A DNA stretch of 11,657 nt, taken from positions 1 to 11,657 of the forward strand of contig CATYEA010000041.1 in the NCBI GenBank assembly GCA_958405355.1, in the 5' to 3' direction. Source of the DNA: an uncultured Lachnospiraceae bacterium (GTDB taxonomy: Bacteria; Bacillota; Clostridia; Lachnospirales; Lachnospiraceae). Within the stretch, counting starts at the first letter, position 1; each line of letters starts with the position of its first letter. The position numbers and the translations under genes are program-made. Under the pieces are notes generated by a model. That model was not told where the DNA came from, did no database searches, and saw nothing but the letters and a program-made list of their open reading frames with translations. Positions 1 through 11,657 of the stretch are shown here, in pieces.

Positions 1-759
1 GAGCGTGCTAAAGAAATTTTGCATACCTATGGGGATTTTGATGCCATCGGTATCAGTACAGCCGGACAGGTGGATTCCCAAAATGGGAAGATTCATTATG
101 CCAATGATAATATTCCAAACTATACAGGAATGGAAATCCGGGCTGTTTTGGAAAAGGAATTCGGAGTTCCTGTTGCGGTGGAAAATGATGTCAATGCGGC
201 GGCTCTCGGAGAGCTTTACTTTGGCGCGGCACAGGGTAGTAAAAATTTCCTGTGTCTGACCTATGGCACCGGTGTCGGTGGGGCTATCGTTTTAAACGGC
301 GGCATTTATACGGGAAATACATTTTCCGGAGCAAGCTTTGGAGGCATTGTTGTCCATCCTGAAGCTATTAAAAAAGACGTGGAATTCAGCGGATGTTATG
401 AGAAATATGCATCGACAACAGCGCTGGTCAAACGGGTGATGGCTGTGGATGCTGCGCTGGATAACGGTCGTAAGATTTTTGAAGCCTTTGAACGGCCGGA
501 AATCCGGGCTGAGATTGATGCATGGATTGATGAGATCGTCTACGGACTGATAACATTGATTCACATTTTTAATCCTTCGGATATCCTGCTGGGCGGCGGT
601 ATCCTTGCTCAGAAATATATTATTGAAGAAGTGTGCCGACGGGTGGATGAAGGTATTTCCGAAGGCTTCCGGGGAACGAAAATCCGTCAGACCGGGCTTG
701 GCAATCAGGCCGGACTTTTAGGAGCAGCATGGCTTGCTTCAGGACTTTTAGAGAAATAA
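1..759 (+). CDS. ROK-family sugar kinase, 3' part (possible N-acetylmannosamine kinase)
   Basis: The reading frame is open from base 1, so the N-terminus (about 40-50 residues, with the first phosphate-binding loop) lies outside the window; 252 residues are visible. ROK hallmarks are clear: ISTAGQVD (sugar-binding side of the N-terminal domain), VENDVNAAALGE, the GTGVGGAIVLNGGIYTG glycine-rich stretch, and a C-terminal DILLGGG followed by GLLGAAWLA. ROK kinases phosphorylate hexoses or N-acetylhexosamines with ATP in the cytoplasm; next to a nan-type operon the natural substrate would be ManNAc, but this is inference. Oddities: where canonical ROK proteins have GExGH this one reads GASFGG, and the CxCGxxGC zinc site is reduced to SGC in FSGCYEKYAS (codons about 379-414). 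A ROK subgroup with a degenerate zinc site and the YASTTALV sequence exists, so this need not mean loss of function. Glucokinase, beta-glucoside kinase or fructokinase activity is not excluded. Confidence 0.9.
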   Translation, partial: ERAKEILHTYGDFDAIGISTAGQVDSQNGKIHYANDNIPNYTGMEIRAVLEKEFGVPVAVENDVNAAALGELYFGAAQGSKNFLCLTYGTGVGGAIVLNGGIYTGNTFSGASFGGIVVHPEAIKKDVEFSGCYEKYASTTALVKRVMAVDAALDNGRKIFEAFERPEIRAEIDAWIDEIVYGLITLIHIFNPSDILLGGGILAQKYIIEEVCRRVDEGISEGFRGTKIRQTGLGNQAGLLGAAWLASGLLEK

Positions 760-832: not shown

Positions 833-1690
833 TTACAATAGTTTTTTTGCGATGGCCTGAGCTGTCGATGCGCGGGCAGCAGCCCGAATTTCCGGATTCT
901 TTCGACAATAACCATAGAACAAACACTCAATCAAAAATAATTGTCCGACTTTAGCGGCAATGGAACCGGATTGGAGCGGGCTTTCACTGTATCCGCATTG
1001 TAAAACGATGTCGGCAAATTCTGCCGCCCGGGATTTTGGAAAATGCGTGACAAGAATAATCGGTGTTTTTCTCTGTTTTGCAAGCTGTAGAACCTCTTCC
1101 ATATCTTTTGTGGAACCGGAGTAAGAAAAGAAAAAGATAACATCCTGAGGAGAAGCCAGTGCGGCCGCCATCGTCTGCATATGTGAATCTTCAATATGGA
1201 TAAAATTTGATGTTGTCGTGGAAAAACGGGCCCATGCTTCCATAGCCATAACCATGCTTCCACCCTGACCGAAACAGTAGACATGGCGTGCTCCTGAAAG
1301 AAGGTTAACGGCTTTGTCAAGAGTTTTTTCCTCCAGATGTTCCAGTGTTTCATTCAGGGAAACGATATTTGATGCATGCAGCTTGTGGCACATAGTATCG
1401 AAATTATCGTCTGCATTGATCGTTTGGGGAATATCCGAAGGATCACCCAGATCATTGGTCCGTTCACATTTTGCTAAAGCCAGTTTAAAGTCGTTATAAC
1501 CGGAAAGACCAAGTCCGCGGCAAAAACGGGTAATTGTCGCTTCGGATACGCCGCAGCTTTCCGCCAGGGAGGTGATAGACATATATTGTGTGCTGGCTGT
1601 GTTGGCAAAGATATAGTCTGCCAGTTTTTTTCCGGAACGGGTCAACGAGTTATATTGTTTTGTAATAGAATCCAGTATATTTTCAGCCAA
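833..1690 (-). CDS. RpiR/MurR-family transcriptional regulator with SIS domain (candidate NanR-type)
   Basis: The 285-residue product has the two-part RpiR plan. Residues about 1-77 form the HTH_6 DNA-binding domain, including SITSLAESCGVSEATITRFC (39-58, turn and recognition helix) and LGLSGYNDFKLALAK. Residues about 125-260 form a SIS sugar-phosphate-binding domain, with VYCFGQGGS (137-145) and FSYSGSTKDMEEV (188-200), the two classic phosphate-contacting loops. Length matches the family. The start is a TTG at 1690, chosen because an AAGGAGG site lies 7 bases upstream (1698-1704) and the HTH domain begins directly after it. It is transcribed divergently from the importer operon and convergently to the ROK kinase. 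Known RpiR-type NanR proteins sense ManNAc-6-P, which suggests but does not prove the same here. MurR-like or other amino-sugar regulators are the alternatives. Confidence 0.93.
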   Translation of the reverse strand: MAENILDSITKQYNSLTRSGKKLADYIFANTASTQYMSITSLAESCGVSEATITRFCRGLGLSGYNDFKLALAKCERTNDLGDPSDIPQTINADDNFDTMCHKLHASNIVSLNETLEHLEEKTLDKAVNLLSGARHVYCFGQGGSMVMAMEAWARFSTTTSNFIHIEDSHMQTMAAALASPQDVIFFFSYSGSTKDMEEVLQLAKQRKTPIILVTHFPKSRAAEFADIVLQCGYSESPLQSGSIAAKVGQLFLIECLFYGYCRKNPEIRAAARASTAQAIAKKLL

Positions 1691-1956: not shown

Positions 1957-2006
1957 AAATGTAACGATGAGCATGTGAATGCTTAGTGCAAAAGGAGGAT
2001 GTTACT

Positions 2007-3614
2007 ATGAAAAAAATGTTGGCCGCCTTATTGGCAACCACGCTGGTTGTAGCTTCTTTAGTCGGATGTGGTTCCGGCAGTAAAGAGACAACAGCAGCAA
2101 AGTCCGACGAAACAACAGCAGAGAGCGTTGCAGAAGCAGCGTCCGTTGACGGCGGAACTTTAAAATTGTCTGTAACGACAGGTGATGGTTCTACAACAGA
2201 TGACAAGATTCCAACACCATGGTATAACCGTATCATGGCAACAAATCTGATGTTCCGTGCCCTGCTTATTGCAGACAGCGATTTGACAAATCCACAGCCG
2301 GATTTGGCAGAATCTGTAGAAATTAGTGAAGATGGCCTCGTATACACCATTACAATGAAAGATGGTTTGAAATGGTCCGATGGCGAAGCTCTGACAGCAG
2401 AAGATGTTCAGTGGTCTATTGAAACAGCATTAAAAGCTGCAACATGTAACTCCATTTATACATCTGCTTTCAAGAAAATCGACAGTATGGCTATCGATGG
2501 CAGCACAATCACTATGACACTGACTGAGCCATACGCTGCAATGAAAGATGTACTTGCTCAGTTCGCAATCTTACCAAAACATTGTCTTGAAAACGCAGAC
2601 CCTCTGACTCTGGAATCTGACGCGTTCTGGACAAATCCAGTTTGCTCCGGTATGTACACACTGAATGAACTGAATGTTGGTAACTACTTTACATTAAAAG
2701 TAAATGAAAATTATGAAGGCACAGCACCAAAGATCCAGTCTATTATCTGCTACTTTGTACAGGATTACATTACAGCAGCACAGGCAGGACAGGCTGACTA
2801 TGTATTCGGCAACGCAGCTGACCTTGTAGAAGCTCTTGAAGGTATGCCAAATTACACAGAACATGAAGTTGATGTATTATTCTACAAATATTTCCTGTTC
2901 AACATGAAGGGTGTTGACGGTAACGAAAACGAGGCTATGCAGAACGTAGAAGTTCGTAAAGCATTGATCGAAGCAATCGACCGTGCAACTCTGGCAACAC
3001 TTTATCCGACAGCAAGCGTTCTGAACAGTGGTGTTCCAAACAGCAACGAAGCTTACAATGGTTTCGAATATACTTTCGATGCTGAAAAAGCAAAAGCAGA
3101 CCTTCAGGCTGCTGGCTATGATATGAGCCGTACACTGAAAATCTGCTACTATAACAATGACCAGACATCTATCGACTTGATCCAGACAGTTGTTCATTAC
3201 CTTGAACAGACTGGTTTGACAGTTGAAGCTACATTGTCCAACGATGGTACAACAGACCTGTTTACAACACGTAACTACGATATCGGTTTCAAAGGTAAGA
3301 GTGCATTCTCCATCGATGAATGGTATACCGAATATCAGAGTACAGATGCTCTGTTCGCTAACGTATTCGGCGGAACAGATGAATTTGATGAACTGGTTAA
3401 CAACCTGTTCAAAGCTACAGACTCCGCAGCAAGAAACGAAGCTCTGAAAGCTCTGCAGGATAAAGAACAGGAAGCTGTTTATAAAGTTCCTGTATTCACT
3501 GTTGGTACATATGTATTCACAAGTGACAAAGTTGTCATTCCGGAAGGCGTAACATTCTGCAATCCACTGTACATGTGTGATCTGGATTTCGCTAACTGGG
3601 AAATGGCTCAGTAA
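2007..3614 (+). CDS. ABC transporter solute-binding lipoprotein, family 5 (peptide/Opp class; likely sialic acid or sialoside)
   Basis: The 535-residue product is exported and lipid-anchored. MKK and a hydrophobic core lead to the lipobox LVGC, with Cys21 as the lipidated residue, followed by a Ser/Thr/Ala/Glu-rich linker to about residue 48. The SBP_bac_5 signature is present as PDLAESVEISEDGLVYTI (98-115) and LKWSDGEALTAEDVQWSIE (121-139), and the overall length fits the class. The start is ATG at 2007, 8 bases after AGGAGG (1993-1998); an in-frame GTG at 1986 would lengthen the signal peptide without its own site. It is the first gene of the operon and is followed by its permeases and ATPases. 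Family 5 proteins bind peptides, nickel, glycosides or sugars, so the ligand cannot be read from sequence. The nanA and nagA neighbours favour Neu5Ac or a sialylated glycan, analogous to the Opp-like SAT systems. Confidence 0.93.
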   Translation: MKKMLAALLATTLVVASLVGCGSGSKETTAAKSDETTAESVAEAASVDGGTLKLSVTTGDGSTTDDKIPTPWYNRIMATNLMFRALLIADSDLTNPQPDLAESVEISEDGLVYTITMKDGLKWSDGEALTAEDVQWSIETALKAATCNSIYTSAFKKIDSMAIDGSTITMTLTEPYAAMKDVLAQFAILPKHCLENADPLTLESDAFWTNPVCSGMYTLNELNVGNYFTLKVNENYEGTAPKIQSIICYFVQDYITAAQAGQADYVFGNAADLVEALEGMPNYTEHEVDVLFYKYFLFNMKGVDGNENEAMQNVEVRKALIEAIDRATLATLYPTASVLNSGVPNSNEAYNGFEYTFDAEKAKADLQAAGYDMSRTLKICYYNNDQTSIDLIQTVVHYLEQTGLTVEATLSNDGTTDLFTTRNYDIGFKGKSAFSIDEWYTEYQSTDALFANVFGGTDEFDELVNNLFKATDSAARNEALKALQDKEQEAVYKVPVFTVGTYVFTSDKVVIPEGVTFCNPLYMCDLDFANWEMAQ

Positions 3615-3748: not shown

Positions 3749-4708
3749 ATGTTAAAATTCATCATTAAGAAGCTGCTTATGATGATTCCGATGCTTTTAG
3801 TTATCAGTTTTATTGTATATTATGGTCTGCAGCTGACAGGTATCGACCCGATCAACTTTATGGTCAGCCCGGAGATGCTTTCCTCAAATAAAGAAAATGT
3901 TGAAGCATTGAGAGAATCTCTTGGATTGAATGACCCATTGATCGTACAGTATTTCCGTTGGCTTGGAAATATTCTTCATGGTGACCTTGGATATTCCTTC
4001 GATGGTTCATCCATCGCTTCTGTTATCGCAGTAAGACTTCCATATACCTTTGAGCTGGCTGGATATTCACTTCTTTTTTCCACCATCATTGGTATCGGTA
4101 TCGGTATTATTTCTGCAGTACGTCAGAATGGTATTATCGATTATGTAGGACGTGTTCTGGCCGTTTTAGGACAGGCTGTTCCTCAGTTCCTTGTTGGTAT
4201 TATATTGATTCAGGTTTTCTCAATTAAACTTGGTTGGTTTCCGGCGAGCAACCGTGTCAGTCCGGATGCAACAAGCGCTCTTGCAGATGCCTTCTTCCAT
4301 TTGTTCCTTCCGGTTCTCACACTGACGATCGGTATGGTAGCTGTATTGATGCGTTATGCACGAAACACCATGCTGGATGTATTGAACAGTGATTATATTA
4401 AAACAGCACGTTCCAAAGGTATTCCGGAATGGAAGGTTTATTTGAAACATGGATTCCGAAATGCCATGAAACCGGTTCTGGTTATTTTGGTATTCCGTAT
4501 TCCTGCATTGATCGGTGGTTCCGTTGTTATTGAAACCGTATTCTCTTATCCGGGAATCGGCTTGACAATGACGAATGCCATCGTATCCGGTGATTATCCG
4601 GTCGTTCTTGTAACAACATTGATTATTGCGGCTACCATGTTGATCTGTTCTTTCATGGTCGATGTATTCAACGCATTGTTAGATCCGCGTGTACGTCTTG
4701 GTGAATAA
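3749..4708 (+). CDS. ABC transporter permease, DppB/OppB type
   Basis: The 319-residue integral membrane protein has the DppB/OppB plan. It has an N-terminal membrane segment (about 8-28), a periplasmic-side region with DPINFMVSPE and LRESLGLNDPLIVQYFRWL (55-72), a core of about five further helices, and the EAA coupling loop at about 212-242 (LNSDYIKTARSKGIPEW through NAMKP). That loop contacts the ATPases. The C-terminal ETVFSYPGIGLT (262-273) and LDPRVRLGE are typical of the family. The ATG at 3749 follows GGGGTGA (3738-3744). Only 17 bases separate it from the second permease. It forms the importer's channel with that protein. Length and motifs are intact. The transported substrate is inferred from the operon, not from this protein. 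Confidence 0.93.
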   Translation: MLKFIIKKLLMMIPMLLVISFIVYYGLQLTGIDPINFMVSPEMLSSNKENVEALRESLGLNDPLIVQYFRWLGNILHGDLGYSFDGSSIASVIAVRLPYTFELAGYSLLFSTIIGIGIGIISAVRQNGIIDYVGRVLAVLGQAVPQFLVGIILIQVFSIKLGWFPASNRVSPDATSALADAFFHLFLPVLTLTIGMVAVLMRYARNTMLDVLNSDYIKTARSKGIPEWKVYLKHGFRNAMKPVLVILVFRIPALIGGSVVIETVFSYPGIGLTMTNAIVSGDYPVVLVTTLIIAATMLICSFMVDVFNALLDPRVRLGE

Positions 4709-4725
4709 AGAAGGAGGAAGAATTT

Positions 4726-5613
4726 ATGGGTGAAACAACGAGTATTAAAGATTCGAATAAAAGCGCATCTTCTTCTTTATTTAAACGAAATGTGCGAAAA
4801 TTTATGAACAATAAGCTGGCTGTTCTCGGCTTGGTTATCATTGTAGTTATTACCGTTGCCTGCATCATTGGCATGATCGTTGGTGTAGACTATGGCACGC
4901 CGGTATTGACTGATATGAAACAGGCTCCGGGAAATGGACATCTCTTTGGTACAGACACGATTGGTCGTGATCTGTTTGCCCGTGTCCTTGTCGGTGGATG
5001 TTATTCCATTCTGATTGGTGCTTTCTGTGCGGTCATGAGTTCTGTTATCGGTGCGATTTTAGGAGCGCTTGCCGGATATTTCGGTGGAAAAGTGGATATG
5101 ATTCTTATTCGTATTTCCGAGATTTTCCAGGCATTCCCACAGTTGGTACTTGTCATGATGCTTGTGGCTATCGTAAATAAACGAGGCCTTGGCAATTTGT
5201 TGTTTATCTTTGTATTTACCGGATGGATGACGACTTTCCGTATGGTCCGCAACGAATTTATGAGTTTGAAAAACGAGACCTACGTTAAAGTATGCGAAGC
5301 TTTCGGTATGAAGAAGAGCAACATTATGTTTAAGCAGATTCTTCCGAATGTAATGAGCCCAATTATCGTTTCCACAACGACAAACGTTGCGTTCTTCATT
5401 CTGCAGGAAGCAGCACTTTCCTTCATTGGTCTTGGTGTGGCTGACAGTACACCGACCTGGGGAAATATTTTAAATGCGGCGAAATCCGTATCCGTTGTTA
5501 CTAACCAGTGGTGGATCTGGGTATTCCCTGGTCTTGCCATCAGTCTTTTTGTCCTGGCAATCAACTTCTTCGGCGACGGTCTGCGTGATGTGCTGGATGC
5601 TAAACAGCAGTAA
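4726..5613 (+). CDS. ABC transporter permease, DppC/OppC type
   Basis: The 295-residue product has an OppC N-terminal segment (basic FKRNVRKFMNNK then a hydrophobic helix, about 19-53). The family signature GTDTIGRDLFARVLVGG follows at 75-91, then about five more membrane segments, the EAA coupling loop at about 185-215 (VKVCEAFGMKKSNIMFKQI, then LPN), FIGLGV and PTWGNIL (233-249), and the terminal GDGLRDVLD (283-291). All expected parts are present. The start at ATG 4726 is set by AAGGAGG (4711-4717). The stop codon is embedded in the next gene's ribosome binding site, which suggests coupled translation with the ATPase. It pairs with the upstream permease to form the membrane pore. Confidence 0.94.
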   Translation: MGETTSIKDSNKSASSSLFKRNVRKFMNNKLAVLGLVIIVVITVACIIGMIVGVDYGTPVLTDMKQAPGNGHLFGTDTIGRDLFARVLVGGCYSILIGAFCAVMSSVIGAILGALAGYFGGKVDMILIRISEIFQAFPQLVLVMMLVAIVNKRGLGNLLFIFVFTGWMTTFRMVRNEFMSLKNETYVKVCEAFGMKKSNIMFKQILPNVMSPIIVSTTTNVAFFILQEAALSFIGLGVADSTPTWGNILNAAKSVSVVTNQWWIWVFPGLAISLFVLAINFFGDGLRDVLDAKQQ

Positions 5614-5624
5614 GGAGGGGCATC

Positions 5625-6653
5625 ATGGATAATAAAGAAATTATTTTAAATGTTGAGAAATTAAATACAACTTTCATTTCAGATAGAAAAGAAATTAAAA
5701 TTGTTAAAGATGTATCTTTCCAGGTGCGCCGCGGAAAGACTCTGGCTGTTGTTGGTGAATCCGGCTGCGGCAAGAGTGTTACCATGAACTCCATCATGCG
5801 TTTTACAGGAAAGAATGCTATTGTTAAAGCAGACAGTATCCAGTATAATGCTTTAAAGGATGGTAAAGTCACCGAATATCATCTGGAAAGTATTAAAGAA
5901 CCAAATGGTCCTGAAATGCGGGCGCTCCGTGGACCGGACATGTCCATGGTATTCCAGGATCCGATGTCCAGTCTGAATCCGGTATATAAGGTTGGTGACC
6001 AGGTGGCAGAGGGACTTCTTCAGCACAATAAAGGCATGAAGAAAGATGAAGCCCGTCAGAAGGTTTTGGAAATGTTCCGTAAACTGGGTATTCCGGATCC
6101 GGAAGAACGTATTGATTGTTATCCGCATCAGTTCTCCGGCGGTATGAAACAGCGTGTTGTTATTGCCATCGCTATGATCTGTAATCCGGAATTGATCATC
6201 TGTGACGAGCCGACAACGGCGCTAGACGTAACGATTCAGGCTCAGATCATGGATCTTTTAAAAGAACTTCAGTTAAAAGAGGGTAAATCCATTATCCTTA
6301 TTACACATAACATGGGATTGGTAGCTGAGATGGCGGATGAAGTCTGTGTTATGTATATGGGCCGTGTGGTTGAGTTCGGAAGTCTGGAAGATCTTTTTGA
6401 CCGCACAAGTCATCCATATACACGGGCATTGCTCCGAAGCGTTCCTGTTCTCGGCCTGGCTGACGGACAGAAACTGGAGACGATTCCGGGTGCTACACCG
6501 AATCCGGCAGACTTAAAGGGCGGCTGTGAATTTGCCGACCGTTGTTCCGAATGTATGGAACGCTGCCGTGAAAAGACGATACCAATGTTTGAAATTTCCC
6601 CGGGACACCGGGTACGTTGCCTGAAATTTGATTCTTATCCGGAGGTGGACTGA
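5625..6653 (+). CDS. ABC transporter ATP-binding protein, DppD/OppD type
   Basis: This 342-residue ATPase powers import. It has Walker A GESGCGKS (44-51), Q-loop Q111 in VFQDPMSSLNP, signature FSGGMKQR (170-177), Walker B LIICDEP (190-196) with the catalytic Glu, D-loop ALD, and the switch His228. The C-terminal oligopeptide-transporter domain (about 250-342) carries a cysteine set at C301, C307, C310, C314 and C332. From memory, DppD-type proteins studied by cryo-EM hold a [4Fe-4S] cluster here, and the spacing is compatible with that. The start is ATG 5625, with AAGGAGGG (5612-5619) overlapping the previous stop. The next ATPase starts one base after this stop. It is a full-length, apparently active subunit, expected to form a heterodimer with the next gene product on the inner face of the membrane. 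Confidence 0.95.
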   Translation: MDNKEIILNVEKLNTTFISDRKEIKIVKDVSFQVRRGKTLAVVGESGCGKSVTMNSIMRFTGKNAIVKADSIQYNALKDGKVTEYHLESIKEPNGPEMRALRGPDMSMVFQDPMSSLNPVYKVGDQVAEGLLQHNKGMKKDEARQKVLEMFRKLGIPDPEERIDCYPHQFSGGMKQRVVIAIAMICNPELIICDEPTTALDVTIQAQIMDLLKELQLKEGKSIILITHNMGLVAEMADEVCVMYMGRVVEFGSLEDLFDRTSHPYTRALLRSVPVLGLADGQKLETIPGATPNPADLKGGCEFADRCSECMERCREKTIPMFEISPGHRVRCLKFDSYPEVD

Positions 6654-6654
6654 T

Positions 6655-7674
6655 ATGAGTACAGAAAATAAAGAAATTATTTTTAAAATCCGGAATTTAC
6701 AGACATGGTTTCCGATTACAAAAGGTTTTATGAAAAAGGTAGTCGGCCACGTAAAAGCAGTGGATGACGTTAGTCTGGATGTTTATAAGGGTGAAACTTT
6801 AGGAATCGTTGGTGAGTCCGGCTGCGGTAAGTCAACATTTGGTAAAACCGTAATGATGCTTGAAAAGCCGACCGGCGGACAGGTTATGTTTAACTATGAC
6901 GGTGAATATAAAGATATTACCAAATTTAATAAAGAGGAAATGTTTGAATTCCGTAAGAAGGTTCAGATGGTTTTCCAGGATCCGTATTCTGCATTGAACC
7001 CTCAGAAGAAAATCTATTCCTCTTTTGAAGAACCGTTAAAAACTCACGGTATTACTTCCCAGGAAGAACGTGAAAAGATGATGCAGAGAGTATTAAAGAT
7101 GGTAAATATCCAGCCGGACTACCTGCTGCGTTATCCGCATGAATTCTCCGGTGGACAGCGTCAGCGTCTTTGTATTGCCAGAGCGTTGGAAGTTATGCCG
7201 GAAGTACTGATCTGTGATGAACCGGTGTCTGCGCTGGACGTATCTATTCAGGCTCAGGTATTGAACCTGATGAAAGAGATTCAGCAGGAATTGAATCTGA
7301 CCTATCTTTTCATTGCTCATGACCTTTCGGTTGTTCAGTATATGTCCGACCGTATTATGGTTATGTACCTTGGAAAGATTGTTGAGGTTGCAGATTCCAG
7401 AGCGCTTTATGAAGAGCCGCTGCATCCGTATACAAAGGCACTGCTTTCAGCAATACCTGTAGCGGATATACATAATAAGAAACAGCGTCAGATTCTGGAA
7501 GGTGAGGTTCCAAGTCCGATCCATAAACCGAGCGGCTGTGCATTCCGTAACCGTTGTCCGCATTGTATGGACATTTGTAAAGAGCAGGACCCTGCACTTC
7601 GGTATCATGGAAAAGAGGGCCATATGGTGGCTTGCCATTTATATGATGGAAAAGAAAGTGGAGACAGCGAATGA
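6655..7674 (+). CDS. ABC transporter ATP-binding protein, DppF/OppF type
   Basis: This second ATPase has 339 residues, with Walker A GESGCGKS (53-60), Q108 in VFQDPYSALNP, signature FSGGQRQR (164-171), Walker B VLICDEP (184-190), and switch His222 in FIAHDLSVVQYMSDR. The C-terminal domain again has a cysteine set (C295, C301, C304, C308, C327), parallel to that of its partner. The start is ATG 6655 with GGAGGTG (6641-6647). An in-frame TTG at 6628 lies inside the preceding gene and has no site of its own. The stop TGA (7672-7674) shares bases with the ATG of the following YhcH-like gene (ATGA), so transporter and catabolic genes are translationally coupled. Confidence 0.95.
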   Translation: MSTENKEIIFKIRNLQTWFPITKGFMKKVVGHVKAVDDVSLDVYKGETLGIVGESGCGKSTFGKTVMMLEKPTGGQVMFNYDGEYKDITKFNKEEMFEFRKKVQMVFQDPYSALNPQKKIYSSFEEPLKTHGITSQEEREKMMQRVLKMVNIQPDYLLRYPHEFSGGQRQRLCIARALEVMPEVLICDEPVSALDVSIQAQVLNLMKEIQQELNLTYLFIAHDLSVVQYMSDRIMVMYLGKIVEVADSRALYEEPLHPYTKALLSAIPVADIHNKKQRQILEGEVPSPIHKPSGCAFRNRCPHCMDICKEQDPALRYHGKEGHMVACHLYDGKESGDSE

Positions 7675-8123
7675 TTTATACTGACATGAACAATTTGGAA
7701 CATTATCGCGGTATGGCGCCGCATCTGGATACGGCCATTGACTTTTTAAAAAGTCATGCGCTCAGTGAGCTTCAGGCCGGAAGAAATGATGTGGACGGCG
7801 AGAATGTGTTTATCAATCGTTTTGGTTATGAAACGATGGCTGAAGAAGCAGCAGCTTTTGAAGCCCACGAATTTTATGCGGATATCCATCTGGTATTATC
7901 CGGACAGGAGTGGATTGGCGTAACGGACATGGAGAAGATGACCGTGACAGCCATAGATAAAGTGACAGATTCAGTGGATTGCGATGGTCCGGTGGAGAAT
8001 CGGCTTTATATGACTCCGGGGAAGGTATTGATCGTCCTTCCTGAGGATGCCCATAAAGTTAAGATTGCCGTAGACGGCCCGGAACGGGTTGAAAAGGCAG
8101 TAGTAAAAGTACAGATGAAATAG
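7671..8123 (+). CDS. yhcH: YhcH/YjgK/YiaL family protein (NanQ-like, candidate sialic acid anomerase)
   Basis: The 150-residue cytoplasmic protein matches the YhcH/YjgK/YiaL family in length and motifs. These are GENVFINRFGYETM (43-56), FEAHEFYADIHLVLSGQEWIG (63-83, with His66 and His73), LYMTPGKVLIVLPEDAHKVKI (112-132, with His128), and a terminal VEKAVVKV. The family fold is a cupin-like beta barrel, and the histidines and acidic residues are probable metal ligands. E. coli YhcH (NanQ) speeds interconversion of sialic acid anomers so that the lyase receives its preferred form. The same role here would link the importer to NanA, and the gene lies between the two. It overlaps the upstream ATPase gene by four bases and is 28 bases from nanA. 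A role on another sugar cannot be excluded. Confidence 0.92.
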   Translation: MIYTDMNNLEHYRGMAPHLDTAIDFLKSHALSELQAGRNDVDGENVFINRFGYETMAEEAAAFEAHEFYADIHLVLSGQEWIGVTDMEKMTVTAIDKVTDSVDCDGPVENRLYMTPGKVLIVLPEDAHKVKIAVDGPERVEKAVVKVQMK

Positions 8124-8151: not shown

Positions 8152-9069
8152 ATGAAAAATATTTCAAAGTATCAGGGAATTATTCCTGCATTTTACGCAT
8201 GTTATGATGATCAGGGAGCTGTCAGCCCGGAACGGGTGGAAGCACTCACAAAGTATATGATTAAAAAAGGTGTTAAAGGTGTTTATGTTGGCGGTTCCTC
8301 CGGTGAATGTATTTATCAGAGTGTTGCAGAGCGTAAATTAGTTCTGGAGCATGTTATGAAAGCAGCCGAAGGAAAACTGACTGTGATTGCCCATGTTGCC
8401 TGCAATAATACGGCAGACAGTATGGAATTGGCAGCTCACGCTGAAAGCCTTGGTGTAGATGCTATTGCGGCCATTCCTCCAATTTATTTCCATTTACCGG
8501 AATATGCCATTGCTGAGTACTGGAATGACATTTCTTCTGCAGCGCCAAATACGGATTTTGTTATCTACAACATTCCTCAGTTGGCCGGAGTTGCACTGAC
8601 AATGCCATTATTTAAAGAGATGCGTAAAAATCCACAGGTAGCAGCTGTAAAGAACAGCTCTATGCCTGTTCAGGATATTCAGATGTTTAAGATGGAAGGC
8701 GGCGAAGGATTCGTTGTTTTCAATGGCCCGGATGAACAGCTTGTTTCCGGTCTGGCCATGGGCGCAGACGGCGGTATCGGTGGAACTTATGCTGTAATGC
8801 CTGAGCTTTACTTAAAAATCAAAGAACTGGTTGAAGCTGGAAACGTTGTGGAAGCACAGAAGATTCAGTATGCTGCTGATGCAATTATCTATGCTATGTG
8901 CGAATGCCACGGAAATCTCTATGCAGTTATGAAAGAAATTCTGAGAATCCGTGAAGGTCTGGATATCGGCGGTGTTCGCAAACCACTGACGAATCTGGTT
9001 CCGGAAGATATGGAACAGGTAAAGAAATGTGCAGCTATGATTGATGATGCGATCAAAGCATACTGCTAG
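8152..9069 (+). CDS. nanA: N-acetylneuraminate lyase
   Basis: The 305-residue (beta/alpha)8 aldolase of the DapA/NanA superfamily cleaves Neu5Ac to ManNAc and pyruvate through a Schiff base. Visible parts are GSSGE (48-52, pyruvate carboxylate binding; E. coli has GSTGE), PPIYFHLP (109-116), catalytic Tyr139 in YNIPQLAG, Schiff-base Lys167 in AVKNSS, and NGPDEQ (191-196), whose Asp194 and Glu195 align with residues that hold the sugar tail in E. coli NanA. GADGGIGGTY (205-213 region) has Gly211 where E. coli has Ser208. The YNIP motif, the DE pair and nagA/YhcH neighbours favour NanA over dihydrodipicolinate synthase. The overall sequence resembles, from memory, the Ruminococcus gnavus enzyme. 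ATG 8152 follows GAAAGGA (8134-8140). A keto-deoxy sugar acid aldolase is the main alternative. Confidence 0.9.
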   Translation: MKNISKYQGIIPAFYACYDDQGAVSPERVEALTKYMIKKGVKGVYVGGSSGECIYQSVAERKLVLEHVMKAAEGKLTVIAHVACNNTADSMELAAHAESLGVDAIAAIPPIYFHLPEYAIAEYWNDISSAAPNTDFVIYNIPQLAGVALTMPLFKEMRKNPQVAAVKNSSMPVQDIQMFKMEGGEGFVVFNGPDEQLVSGLAMGADGGIGGTYAVMPELYLKIKELVEAGNVVEAQKIQYAADAIIYAMCECHGNLYAVMKEILRIREGLDIGGVRKPLTNLVPEDMEQVKKCAAMIDDAIKAYC

Positions 9070-9086: not shown

Positions 9087-10541
9087 TTGTCAAAATATTT
9101 AATGCTCGACCGAAGGGCTTTAAATCCTCAGGCTATGGAAAATATATCAATACAGGTAACGCCTCCAAAAAAGGATGGGGTAAATAATCCTTTGATGGTT
9201 CAGGATAAACCCTGGGAGATACGAATTGACAATGGCTATCCCAATGTTATTTATGATAAAGAGAAAGAAATTTATCGCTGTTATTACACGTTATTTACGG
9301 ATGATCTGGATACGGAAGGAACGACTGTCAAGGAACGGGCGTCGAGAGATTATCTTCCGAGAATGGACAGGGTGACATCCCTGGCTTATGCGGAAAGTAA
9401 AGATGGTATTCATTGGGAAAAACCGGCTCTTGGCCGGGTAGAATGGCGTGGCAGCAAGGCGAATAACATTCTCTTTCTATTTGCACATGGGACGGGGGTT
9501 ATGGTCGATGACCATAACTCCTCTCCCGATTCAAAATATAAGTTAGTGACAAAGGTGGATATTCCGGGGCATGGAGCTCATATGGCGGTGGCCTTTTCGC
9601 CGGATGGCGTTAACTGGTCCGAACTGATTCCATGGCCGGATTATAATCCACAGGCAGACAGTCATAATCTGCCTTTCTGGAATGAAGAAGAAGGGTGTTA
9701 TATGCTTCTGTCCCGAGTGTGGAAGGACGGTATCCGTATGACGACCCTGAGCCGCAGTGATGATTTTATTCACTGGAGTGAGCCGAAGGAAACTCTCAGG
9801 GGACGGGGCTTTGAGGCTCAGGTTTATTCTATGCCTGTATTTTTCTGGAATAATCTTTATCTTGGTCTGGCTTCCATGATTCATGAGGGAGATCGGACCG
9901 ATAAAGATTTTGACACAGTGGATTGCGAACTGACATGGGCAGTGGAGCCGGAACATTTTGATTTTGTGGCGCCGGGCCAGTCTGTGATTCCAAGAGGTCA
10001 GGGACATTATCCGACAGGTGATTTTGACTGTGGCTGCATATACGCATCCCAGCCGGTCATTGGTCCGAATGGTGAACTGTGGTTATATTATATGGGCGGC
10101 AATGGACGACATACGAATTTCCGTGAAACGTCGCTGGCGAGAGCACGGTGGCAGGCGGACAAGTTTGCTGCGATGGTGCCGAAACGTGAAGAAGAAAACA
10201 GCCTTTTGACGACCTGTAAAATGAAATTTCAGGGAGATTCCCTGGAAATTCTGGCGGAAGCCATCGATAAAACAAAGCCGGTTCTGATGGAAGCACAGAT
10301 TCATCGTGTGTGGACCGAGGATGCGGTACCGGGATTTTCCTTTGAGGAAAGTCAGGTATCTGAGATGAAAGATGGATGGAAATCCATTCGATGGCCGAAA
10401 GGATTTGGAAGTCTTGCAGGAACCAGCGGCTGTATAAAGTTGAAGTTTAAAAATCTAAAAATCTGGGCAATGCGGGGAGATATTTGCCTGGATGGGCATC
10501 GCCTCTGGGAAGGCGCAGACATGGAAAACGAGGGATATTAA
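9087..10541 (+). CDS. Cytoplasmic beta-propeller protein, GH32/GH43-like, unknown activity
   Basis: I cannot assign a named function. The 484-residue product has no signal peptide or membrane segment. Residues about 40-355 look like a five-bladed propeller of the GH32/GH43 type, with repeated S-x-D-G-x-x-W turns: SKDGIHW (104-110), SPDGVNW (171-177) and the related SDDFIHW (224-230). Strands such as YRCYYTLF (63-70), YMLLSRVW (205-212) and LWLYYMGGNGRH (331-342) add to the pattern. Residues about 370-484 resemble the small beta-sandwich of GH32-like proteins (CIKLKFKNLKIWAMRG). Candidate acidic residues include Asp48, Asp141 or Asp142, and Glu243, but no catalytic set is certain. The start is TTG 9087 after GGGGCGG (9075-9081); the in-frame ATG at 9102 has no ribosome site. 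It lies 17 bases after nanA, and its stop overlaps the nagA start. A glycosidase acting on imported sialosides is a contextual guess. Confidence 0.75.
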   Translation: MSKYLMLDRRALNPQAMENISIQVTPPKKDGVNNPLMVQDKPWEIRIDNGYPNVIYDKEKEIYRCYYTLFTDDLDTEGTTVKERASRDYLPRMDRVTSLAYAESKDGIHWEKPALGRVEWRGSKANNILFLFAHGTGVMVDDHNSSPDSKYKLVTKVDIPGHGAHMAVAFSPDGVNWSELIPWPDYNPQADSHNLPFWNEEEGCYMLLSRVWKDGIRMTTLSRSDDFIHWSEPKETLRGRGFEAQVYSMPVFFWNNLYLGLASMIHEGDRTDKDFDTVDCELTWAVEPEHFDFVAPGQSVIPRGQGHYPTGDFDCGCIYASQPVIGPNGELWLYYMGGNGRHTNFRETSLARARWQADKFAAMVPKREEENSLLTTCKMKFQGDSLEILAEAIDKTKPVLMEAQIHRVWTEDAVPGFSFEESQVSEMKDGWKSIRWPKGFGSLAGTSGCIKLKFKNLKIWAMRGDICLDGHRLWEGADMENEGY

Positions 10542-11657
10542 TGATTATTCAGAGCAAAAAAGTCTGGATTGGCGGACAATTTATACCGGCTCAGATAGAG
10601 ATTTCAGAAGATAAAATTCAAAGAATCTATGCTTACGGTACAAAGCCTGTAGAGGAAGATTACGGAGAGAAGGCGATTCTTCCTGGCTTTATAGACATTC
10701 ATACCCACGGTTCCTATGGTTTTGATACAAATGATGCAGAACCTTCCGGTCTTAGAGACTGGATGGAAAGGATTCCCGAAGAAGGAGTCACTGCGATCCT
10801 GCCGACAACGGTAACCCAGATGCCGGATGTTCTTACAAAGGCTGTGGCGAATGTAGCCAGTGTCATTGAAGAAGGGTATGACGGTGCAGAAATTCTCGGC
10901 ATTCATTTTGAGGGGCCTTATCTGGATATGGAGTATAAAGGAGCCCAGCCGCCGGAGGCTATTGCAAAGCCTTCTGTGGAACAGTTTAAAATGTATCAGG
11001 AAGCGGCAAAGGGATGGATTAAATATATTACTATCAGTCCGGAACATGATGAGGATTTCGAGCTGATTCGATATTGTTCGGAAAATGGTGTTGTTGTCAG
11101 CATGGGACATTCTTCGGCAACTTACGAGGAAGCTTTGATGGCTGTGGCCAATGGCGCTACCTCTATGACCCATGTTTACAATGGAATGACACCGCTGCAC
11201 CATCGGAATCCGGGGCTTGTCGGGGCGGCTTTCCGTATCCGGGATATTTATGGTGAGATTATCGGAGACGGACACCATTCACATATTGGAGCCCTGAATA
11301 TATTTTTTCAGGCCAAGGGCCGGGAACGGGGCATCCTGATTACAGATTCTCTGCGGGCAAAACATTGTCCGCCGGGAGGAAATTATCAGCTTGGCGGCCA
11401 CGATATCGAAATTGGTGAGGATGGCCTGGCACGGCTGAAAGGAACGGATACGATTGCGGGAAGCACACTGCAGATGAACAAGGGGCTTCAGGTTTTGATT
11501 GAGGAAGCAGGTGTTCCTGTGGATACGGCGATTAATGCCTGTACGCTGAATCCGGCACGGTGTTTGGGGGTAGATGACCGGAAAGGAAAAATCTGCGCCG
11601 GATATGATGCGGACCTGGTAGTTATGGATCGGGATTACAATGTTATCCAAACCTATT
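10541..11657 (+). CDS. nagA: N-acetylglucosamine-6-phosphate deacetylase, 3' end cut by the window edge
   Basis: The frame is open from ATG 10541 to the edge; 372 residues are visible, nearly the full usual length. The amidohydrolase NagA removes acetate from GlcNAc-6-P, giving GlcN-6-P and acetate. Motifs in order are LPGFIDIHTHGSYGFDT (47-63, metal-site HxH at 54 and 56), HFEGPYL (122-128, Glu124), VSMGHSSAT (186-194, His190), MTHVYNGMTPL (209-219, His211), GDGHHSHI (242-249), TDS with the catalytic Asp269, and DADLVVMD (356-363) near the C-terminus. The ATG overlaps the propeller stop as TAATG, with GAGGG (10530-10534) as ribosome site, so translation is coupled. It takes the GlcNAc-6-P expected from NanA, NanK and NanE. 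NagB (deaminase) and NanE are not in the window and may lie just outside it. Confidence 0.95.
   Translation, partial: MIIQSKKVWIGGQFIPAQIEISEDKIQRIYAYGTKPVEEDYGEKAILPGFIDIHTHGSYGFDTNDAEPSGLRDWMERIPEEGVTAILPTTVTQMPDVLTKAVANVASVIEEGYDGAEILGIHFEGPYLDMEYKGAQPPEAIAKPSVEQFKMYQEAAKGWIKYITISPEHDEDFELIRYCSENGVVVSMGHSSATYEEALMAVANGATSMTHVYNGMTPLHHRNPGLVGAAFRIRDIYGEIIGDGHHSHIGALNIFFQAKGRERGILITDSLRAKHCPPGGNYQLGGHDIEIGEDGLARLKGTDTIAGSTLQMNKGLQVLIEEAGVPVDTAINACTLNPARCLGVDDRKGKICAGYDADLVVMDRDYNVIQTY

Follow-up and report, generated by a model that had tools for sequence, protein, structure and literature searches.

A predicted five-bladed propeller protein encoded in a sialic acid operon of an uncultured Lachnospiraceae bacterium belongs to a large uncharacterised family

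The stretch of DNA analysed here (the window, 11,657 nucleotides of contig CATYEA010000041.1, assembly GCA_958405355.1, from an uncultured Lachnospiraceae bacterium) contains, judged by its gene content, a nan operon consisting of nanK, a divergent rpiR, the genes for a binding protein and OppBCDF, yhcH, nanA, a gene for a propeller protein that we call PROP, and nagA. PROP (9087..10541, + strand) has 484 residues, a TTG start at 9087 and no signal peptide; 17 bases separate its gene from the preceding nanA, and the stop codon overlaps the start of nagA as TAATG. The original prediction, made from the letters of the window alone, had described this reading frame as an unassigned intracellular propeller protein embedded in a sialic acid operon. 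The frame, its place between nanA and nagA and the nan context (nanA, yhcH, importer and nagA, recognised by family search and reading) were all confirmed. In the following we argue that PROP belongs to a large, uncharacterised and mostly exported family of five-bladed propellers and that, as far as sequences can tell, its link to sialic acid is real.

The left edge of the window cuts the 5' end of a gene that reads as a NanK-type ROK kinase (1..759, +); at the Frisingicoccus caecimuris locus L001, nanE lies upstream of its counterpart. A Pfam search identified the divergent RpiR-family regulator (HTH_6 and SIS; 833..1690, −) and the family-5 solute-binding protein (1986..3614, +). Between these two genes lies an 11-nucleotide inverted repeat (1775-1806; 10 of 11 pairs, 10-nucleotide spacer), a possible operator. 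The PDB matches of the binding protein include the entry 5z99 (E 6.5e-14), which PMC10017367 names as SatA of H. ducreyi; other binding proteins score higher. The Opp-type permeases and ATPases (3749..7674, +) were named by reading as OppB (3749-4708), OppC (4726-5613), OppD (5625-6653) and OppF (6628-7674), and homologues occupy the same place in relatives. They are followed by a YhcH/NanQ-type protein (DUF386; 7671..8123, +), which matched the N-acetylneuraminate anomerase model below its cut-off, and by NanA (8152..9069, +), of the N-acetylneuraminate lyase type. The two best models of NanA are both N-acetylneuraminate lyase models, and both scores are below the equivalog cut-offs (227.6 of 281 and 209 of 382 bits); the G-x-D-E motif is present. 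NagA, the N-acetylglucosamine-6-phosphate deacetylase (10541..11657, +), exceeded the cut-off of TIGR00221 and is cut at its 3' end by the window. A tRNA scan of the window found none.

In the comparison with F. caecimuris, the amino acid identity was 83% for PROP, 96% for NanA, 97% for YhcH, 99% for OppF and 91% for NagA; of these five operon genes, the one for PROP is thus the least conserved. Its ratio of nonsynonymous to synonymous substitution rates (dN/dS) of 0.078 indicates purifying selection. Thus PROP is a selected gene which changes faster than the neighbours compared.

The AlphaFold2 model of PROP (mean predicted local distance difference test, pLDDT, of 95) shows a five-bladed beta-propeller (residues 21-362; 9147..10172, +) followed by a C-terminal beta-sandwich (residues 363-470; 10173..10496, +). 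The strands fit five blades, and in a fold search the model covered almost whole five-bladed GH130 chains (276 residues aligned to a chain of 302). By this model, PROP falls into the same fold class as GH130, GH43 and the FpGalNAc deacetylase and outside that of the six-bladed GH33 sialidases; its class includes carbohydrate hydrolases, phosphorylases and a deacetylase. Hence the propeller foreseen from the Asp-box turns, the residues of which are conserved, was borne out. Of the GH32-like C-terminal sandwich that had also been proposed, the sandwich is present in the model; the likeness to GH32 found no counterpart, as the sandwich alone gave no clear fold match and no chain named GH32 was among the matches listed in two fold searches. 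A viral fold library gave matches down to E 8e-12, but their TM-scores to PROP did not exceed 0.44.

At the sequence level, PROP reached no model of Pfam or NCBIfam, in line with the earlier view that it falls into no known family. The best Pfam entry, and the only one at E <= 1, was PF04616 with 12.4 bits (cut-off 32.2; E 0.1). PROP had no match in PHROGs, none in plasmids searched by tblastn, and a single-sequence search of the PDB found no chain; in a profile search of the PDB no match exceeded 28 bits, and most of the matches covered Asp-box stretches. Relatives are numerous. A protein database search with PROP returned 1,622 at E <= 1e-3 among 4,446 candidates, and with a distant relative as the query at least 7,895 of the 7,999 candidates scored were relatives. 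Among the matches listed, the sources name them 'hypothetical protein', 'glycoside hydrolase family protein' or 'Glycosyl hydrolase family 32'.

To describe the family we use an alignment of 81 sequences from three branches: 49 close relatives (the window protein and 48 of the best 120 database relatives, thinned at 75% identity and by length), 13 exported sisters and 19 distant relatives, the last two groups being picked from 51 length-filtered open reading frames (ORFs) of the loci. In a tree that included 17 of the 49 close rows, the close branch groups with the sister branch at a support of 100/100, and the close sequences make up a single clade adjoining a sequence from Anaerolineae (L004). 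A hydrophobic, signal-like N-terminus, called by a simple hydropathy rule rather than by a trained predictor, was present in 0/49 close, 12/13 sister and 14/19 distant sequences. From these N-termini the close branch looks cytoplasmic, as had been predicted for PROP. Since the tree was rooted at the midpoint, we can only infer that exported ancestors gave rise to the cytoplasmic form. The exported relatives are spread through Planctomycetota, Verrucomicrobiota, Bacteroidota and other groups, and some lie beside genes for a NanM-symporter or a lyase.

Conserved acidic residues, which the original prediction had asked a family alignment to reveal, are indeed present. W43 and E44 (9213..9218, +), situated in front of blade I, are kept in 80/81 and 79/81 sequences, and D191 (9657..9659, +), just ahead of where blade III starts with its first strand, in 81/81; together with R217 and the Asp-box residues they are common to all three branches. 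H134 (9486..9488, +), close to where the first strand of blade II begins, is found in 49/49 close, 13/13 sister and 13/19 distant sequences. Further conserved polar residues that, to judge from the DSSP line, lie near the starts of inner strands are N194 and, in the close and sister branches, Q245. A second set sets these two branches apart from the distant one: the arginines R46 (9222..9224, +), R84 (9336..9338, +), R95 (9369..9371, +) and R346 (10122..10124, +) occur in every close sequence and every sister sequence (R46 in 12/13) and in none of the 19 distant ones. D48 (distant 0/19) and N49 (distant 1/19) follow the same pattern. E44 and D191 are a candidate acid pair, and the four arginines a candidate carboxylate clamp.

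The GH130 beta-mannoside phosphorylases and hydrolases (7fip, 9gph, 5b0p) share the fold class of the PROP model, from which they differ in that PROP has an identity of 15-16% in the alignments, an additional C-terminal sandwich and a nan context. By eye, the place of the GH130 blade-II catalytic Asp would be taken by H134 or G135, in an alignment that is one blade off; because of this slip, the residue mapping was not used as proof. PROP might be a glycosidase or phosphorylase, as in GH130, whose substrate is a sugar found together with sialic acid, such as a mannoside or a sialic-acid-free oligosaccharide. We regard this as quite improbable, since PROP does not match PF04041, the profile match is not only shifted by one blade but has a probability of just 27 for the close branch alone, and the consistent linkage is to sialic acid genes; nagA adjoins PROP in only two of the seven loci seen (window counted).

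The N-acetylgalactosamine deacetylase of Flavonifractor plautii (FpGalNAcDeAc; 6n1a/6n1b, P0122) has a propeller that continues into a second domain, as in PROP; unlike PROP, it is a multi-domain protein of 772 residues (PF00754, PF02368). We take its active site to be E64, H97, D100 and H252, i. e. E90, H123, D126 and H278 in P0122, and likewise assume the roles of these residues. At the corresponding positions, assigned by motif, the distant branch has E97 in 8/19, H134-N in 9/19 and H245 in 9/19 sequences. The close branch has T, V, P, A or S at 97 and Q at 245, in 49/49 sequences each, and is thus not a plain copy of FpGalNAcDeAc. By analogy, the propeller pocket of PROP could serve to deacylate sialic acid or an amino sugar related to it, the group removed being an N-acyl, O-acetyl or lactone group. 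Such a deacylase seems unlikely to us, because of the presumed catalytic set only the blade-II histidine, H134, is kept in the close branch, and because the profile of this branch alone gave no match (probability 17). A fragment of FpGalNAcDeAc had four weak matches in 391 class-level genomes, which were not used. The label CE18 for this enzyme was dropped, CE18 being founded on the fungal Agd3.

GH43 and GH32, of the clans GH-F and GH-J, have a propeller fold as in PROP, and some of the 81 aligned relatives weakly match their Pfam models at E <= 0.01 (PF00251 in 8/81, PF04616 in 2/81); BNR_2 was matched by 1/81 (E 7e-4). PROP itself stays far below the PF04616 cut-off, and PF00251 is not among its matches. 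The profile comparison with GH43 was weak (probability 38), and no reliable residue mapping was obtained for the GH43/GH32 catalytic triad of Asp, Asp and Glu in blades I-III; counted from the strand ends, the place of the blade-I Asp would fall on G50. That the GH43 and GH32 cut-offs are not reached and that no catalytic triad can be assigned would suit a non-catalytic propeller with a sugar-binding or regulatory role. However, the polar residues conserved near the inner-strand starts (E44, H134, D191 and N194, and Q245 in the close and sister branches), the strong purifying selection and the occurrence of some exported sisters in catabolic clusters make such a role very improbable. PROP is probably an enzyme, and its activity is a matter of conjecture.

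Six genomes (G001, G002, G003, G068, G152 and G372) encode strong relatives of PROP, i. e. those with at least 774 bits to A2. Among 397 family-level genomes, nine had any match at E <= 1e-3, four of them strong (G001 included); among the 391 class-level genomes, 38 had any match, with a strong one in G001 only and the next best at 154 bits. In 6/6 of these close relatives, a NanA homologue and YhcH are part of the cluster. The suspicion that homologues might rarely neighbour nanA can therefore be dismissed. In G003, a distance of about 5.6 kb lies between the lyase and PROP, and the importer is of the SBP1/MalFG type instead of Opp; YhcH still adjoins PROP, and a second, distant-type PROP is encoded on the opposite side of YhcH. 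In the nan cluster of Cottocaccamicrobium (L003:7850-10001 / L100:11153-13304), a second, distant-type propeller of 533 residues with no Pfam match has a MalG-type permease gene on one side and yhcH on the other. Flanking genes that vary from locus to locus, among them DUF362, subtilase and PHP genes, were disregarded.

As a control, we examined nan loci without PROP. NanA was present at E <= 1e-60 in 59 of the 397 family-level genomes, four of which are PROP carriers, and the nan loci of 40 of the 55 non-carriers were inspected, some of them cut by contig ends. Where importers were recognised in these loci, they were of the Opp, SSF or MalFG type, the latter two often by weak matches. G341 and G117, both among these 40, encode a distant-type relative elsewhere in the genome. 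GH33-type (PF13088) genes occur in 2/6 carriers and in 11/40 non-carriers with nanA. GH33-type genes being no rarer in carriers, these counts give no hint of PROP taking the place of a sialidase, and a lack of GH33 was rejected as an argument for such a replacement.

These data bear on the proposal of the original prediction that PROP is an intracellular exosialidase acting on imported sialyl-oligosaccharides. The missing signal peptide and the operon position agree with it, the conserved arginines could bind a carboxylate, and 4/6 carriers have no PF13088 gene; moreover, GH33 sialidases have the Asp-box turns and the metabolic context in common with PROP. Yet PROP is not of the sialidase fold, with five blades rather than six and no sialidase or BNR match in Pfam, GH33-type genes are as frequent in carriers as in non-carriers, and the genome of G003 contains two of them above the cut-off besides PROP. 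The importer of the PROP operon resembles the SatABCD class, and such ABC systems import free Neu5Ac (N-acetylneuraminic acid) according to PMC10017367. Hence, contrary to what had been supposed, an Opp-class importer is no evidence for large ligands. Taken together, we hold an exosialidase to be distinctly unlikely, and the term sialidase-like is not supported. An ordinary alpha-2,3/2,6 sialidase becomes less likely also because BNR_2 genes are present in the G003 genome and at the sister locus L023. Of the other sialidase families, GH181 includes Amuc_1547, which is described as six-bladed.

The association with sialic acid extends to the exported sisters. Using phmmer, nan markers (lyase, NanM, YhcH or NanE) were detected at 5/17 exported-sister loci versus 3/60 distant loci, in stretches of varying length (Fisher p 0.011). 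The sister markers are a lyase at L006 and L015, NanM at L007 and L013, and YhcH at L023; the distant ones are a lyase at L031 and L053 and a weak YhcH at L060. The lyases of L006, L015, L031 and L053 all keep the G-x-D-E motif.

Several of these neighbourhoods have peculiarities of their own. At L007 (12680-15352) and L013 (13788-16514) the NanM mutarotase is fused to a sodium:solute symporter; two further candidates for such fusions (L007:5474-8170 and L022:5926-8622) proved in Pfam to be an HZS_alpha-domain and a carboxypeptidase-regulatory-like protein, respectively, and the marker counts used NanM parts alone. The Saprospiraceae locus L023 (593-11588) combines the sister propeller with two SASA esterases, a polysaccharide deacetylase, a BNR_2 protein, two ADP-ribosylglycohydrolase-like genes and yhcH. 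Four successive ORFs beside the sister propeller of the Anaerolineae locus L004 (1824-7725) are weakly similar to the ADP-ribosylglycohydrolase-type protein of L023 (31-49 bits). At L005 (4562-9883) and L006 (8193-9923), a protein of 571-577 residues with no Pfam match is encoded directly upstream of the sister propeller, at L005 in three related copies in a row, one of which found no relative in a PDB sequence search (best E 0.98). Among the distant loci, two from Bacteroidota (L031:6214-12031 and L053:9788-15512) have the same order of propeller, MFS-like, N-acetylneuraminate-lyase type, SDR-like and Gfo/Idh/MocA-like genes, the MFS-like and SDR-like names being based on a reading of the sequence starts only.

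The sialic acid association is thus common to the cytoplasmic and some of the exported relatives, survives a change of the importer and runs along the branch with the four arginines, a pattern that an optional hydrolase fits best. Our preferred explanation, which we put forward tentatively and at somewhat less than an even chance, is that PROP is a cytoplasmic hydrolase which acts on an imported sialic acid derivative and hands free sialic acid to YhcH and NanA. The operon importer would bring in the derivative, PROP would act on it in the cytoplasm ahead of NanA, and the free sialic acid released would pass to YhcH for anomer conversion and to NanA. E44 and D191 would form the acid pair of a pocket on the propeller axis, next to H134, the four arginines would hold the carboxylate, and the bond cut would be glycosidic and not that of an acyl group. 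Rather than a core step, PROP would be an optional accessory through which more kinds of sialic acid become usable. The operon coupling, the nan linkage in 6/6 close relatives, the exchange of the importer in G003 while YhcH still adjoins PROP, the sister markers, the 100/100 grouping, the shared arginines, the fold class and the dN/dS value support this explanation.

A number of points weigh against such a hydrolase. Gene linkage by itself does not give a reaction, and the single pocket shared by E44, H134, D191 and the arginines is conjectural. PROP was found in 0/40 non-carrier nan loci and is thus not needed for nan catabolism or for this importer. A similar binding protein is encoded in four of these 40 loci (L186, L195, L197 and L200; 754-841 bits to that of the window), which argues that the importer is independent of PROP and PROP an accessory, and which also speaks against reading larger ligands from the importer. 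The binding proteins of three carriers score 906-1166 bits and that of G068 544 bits; G003 has no such protein, and the contig of G002 stops short of that position. In G068, the NanA homologue beside PROP has an identity of only 39% and no G-x-D-E motif. Two of the six close relatives are from Frisingicoccus, the sister and distant loci are not independent (L007 and L014, both among the 17, lie on one contig), and 12/17 sister loci had no counted nan marker in the stretch examined.

A bolder variant of the hydrolase would be a new family of sialic acid glycosidases on a five-bladed propeller, cytoplasmic in gut Clostridia and exported elsewhere, with the E44/D191 pair, H134 and a four-arginine clamp. 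It would be distinct from GH33, GH156 and GH181 and maybe aimed at a form (anhydro, polysialic or of unusual linkage) that ordinary sialidases leave. We consider this possible, albeit doubtful.

Gut bacteria obtain in sialic acid an important nutrient from the host, and the core pathway of its use is well described. The literature searched, with partial coverage of subscription papers, contained no description of PROP, which is no proof of absence. Since the close relatives share the type of cluster and some exported relatives adjoin sialic acid genes in other phyla, PROP may perform an undescribed step of sialic acid use. With PROP, an uncharacterised family whose fold class is known gains a new and testable connection to sialic acid catabolism. 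A conserved accessory gene of nan operons, with thousands of relatives that have no known function, would mean that a form of sialic acid or a catalytic strategy has been missed.
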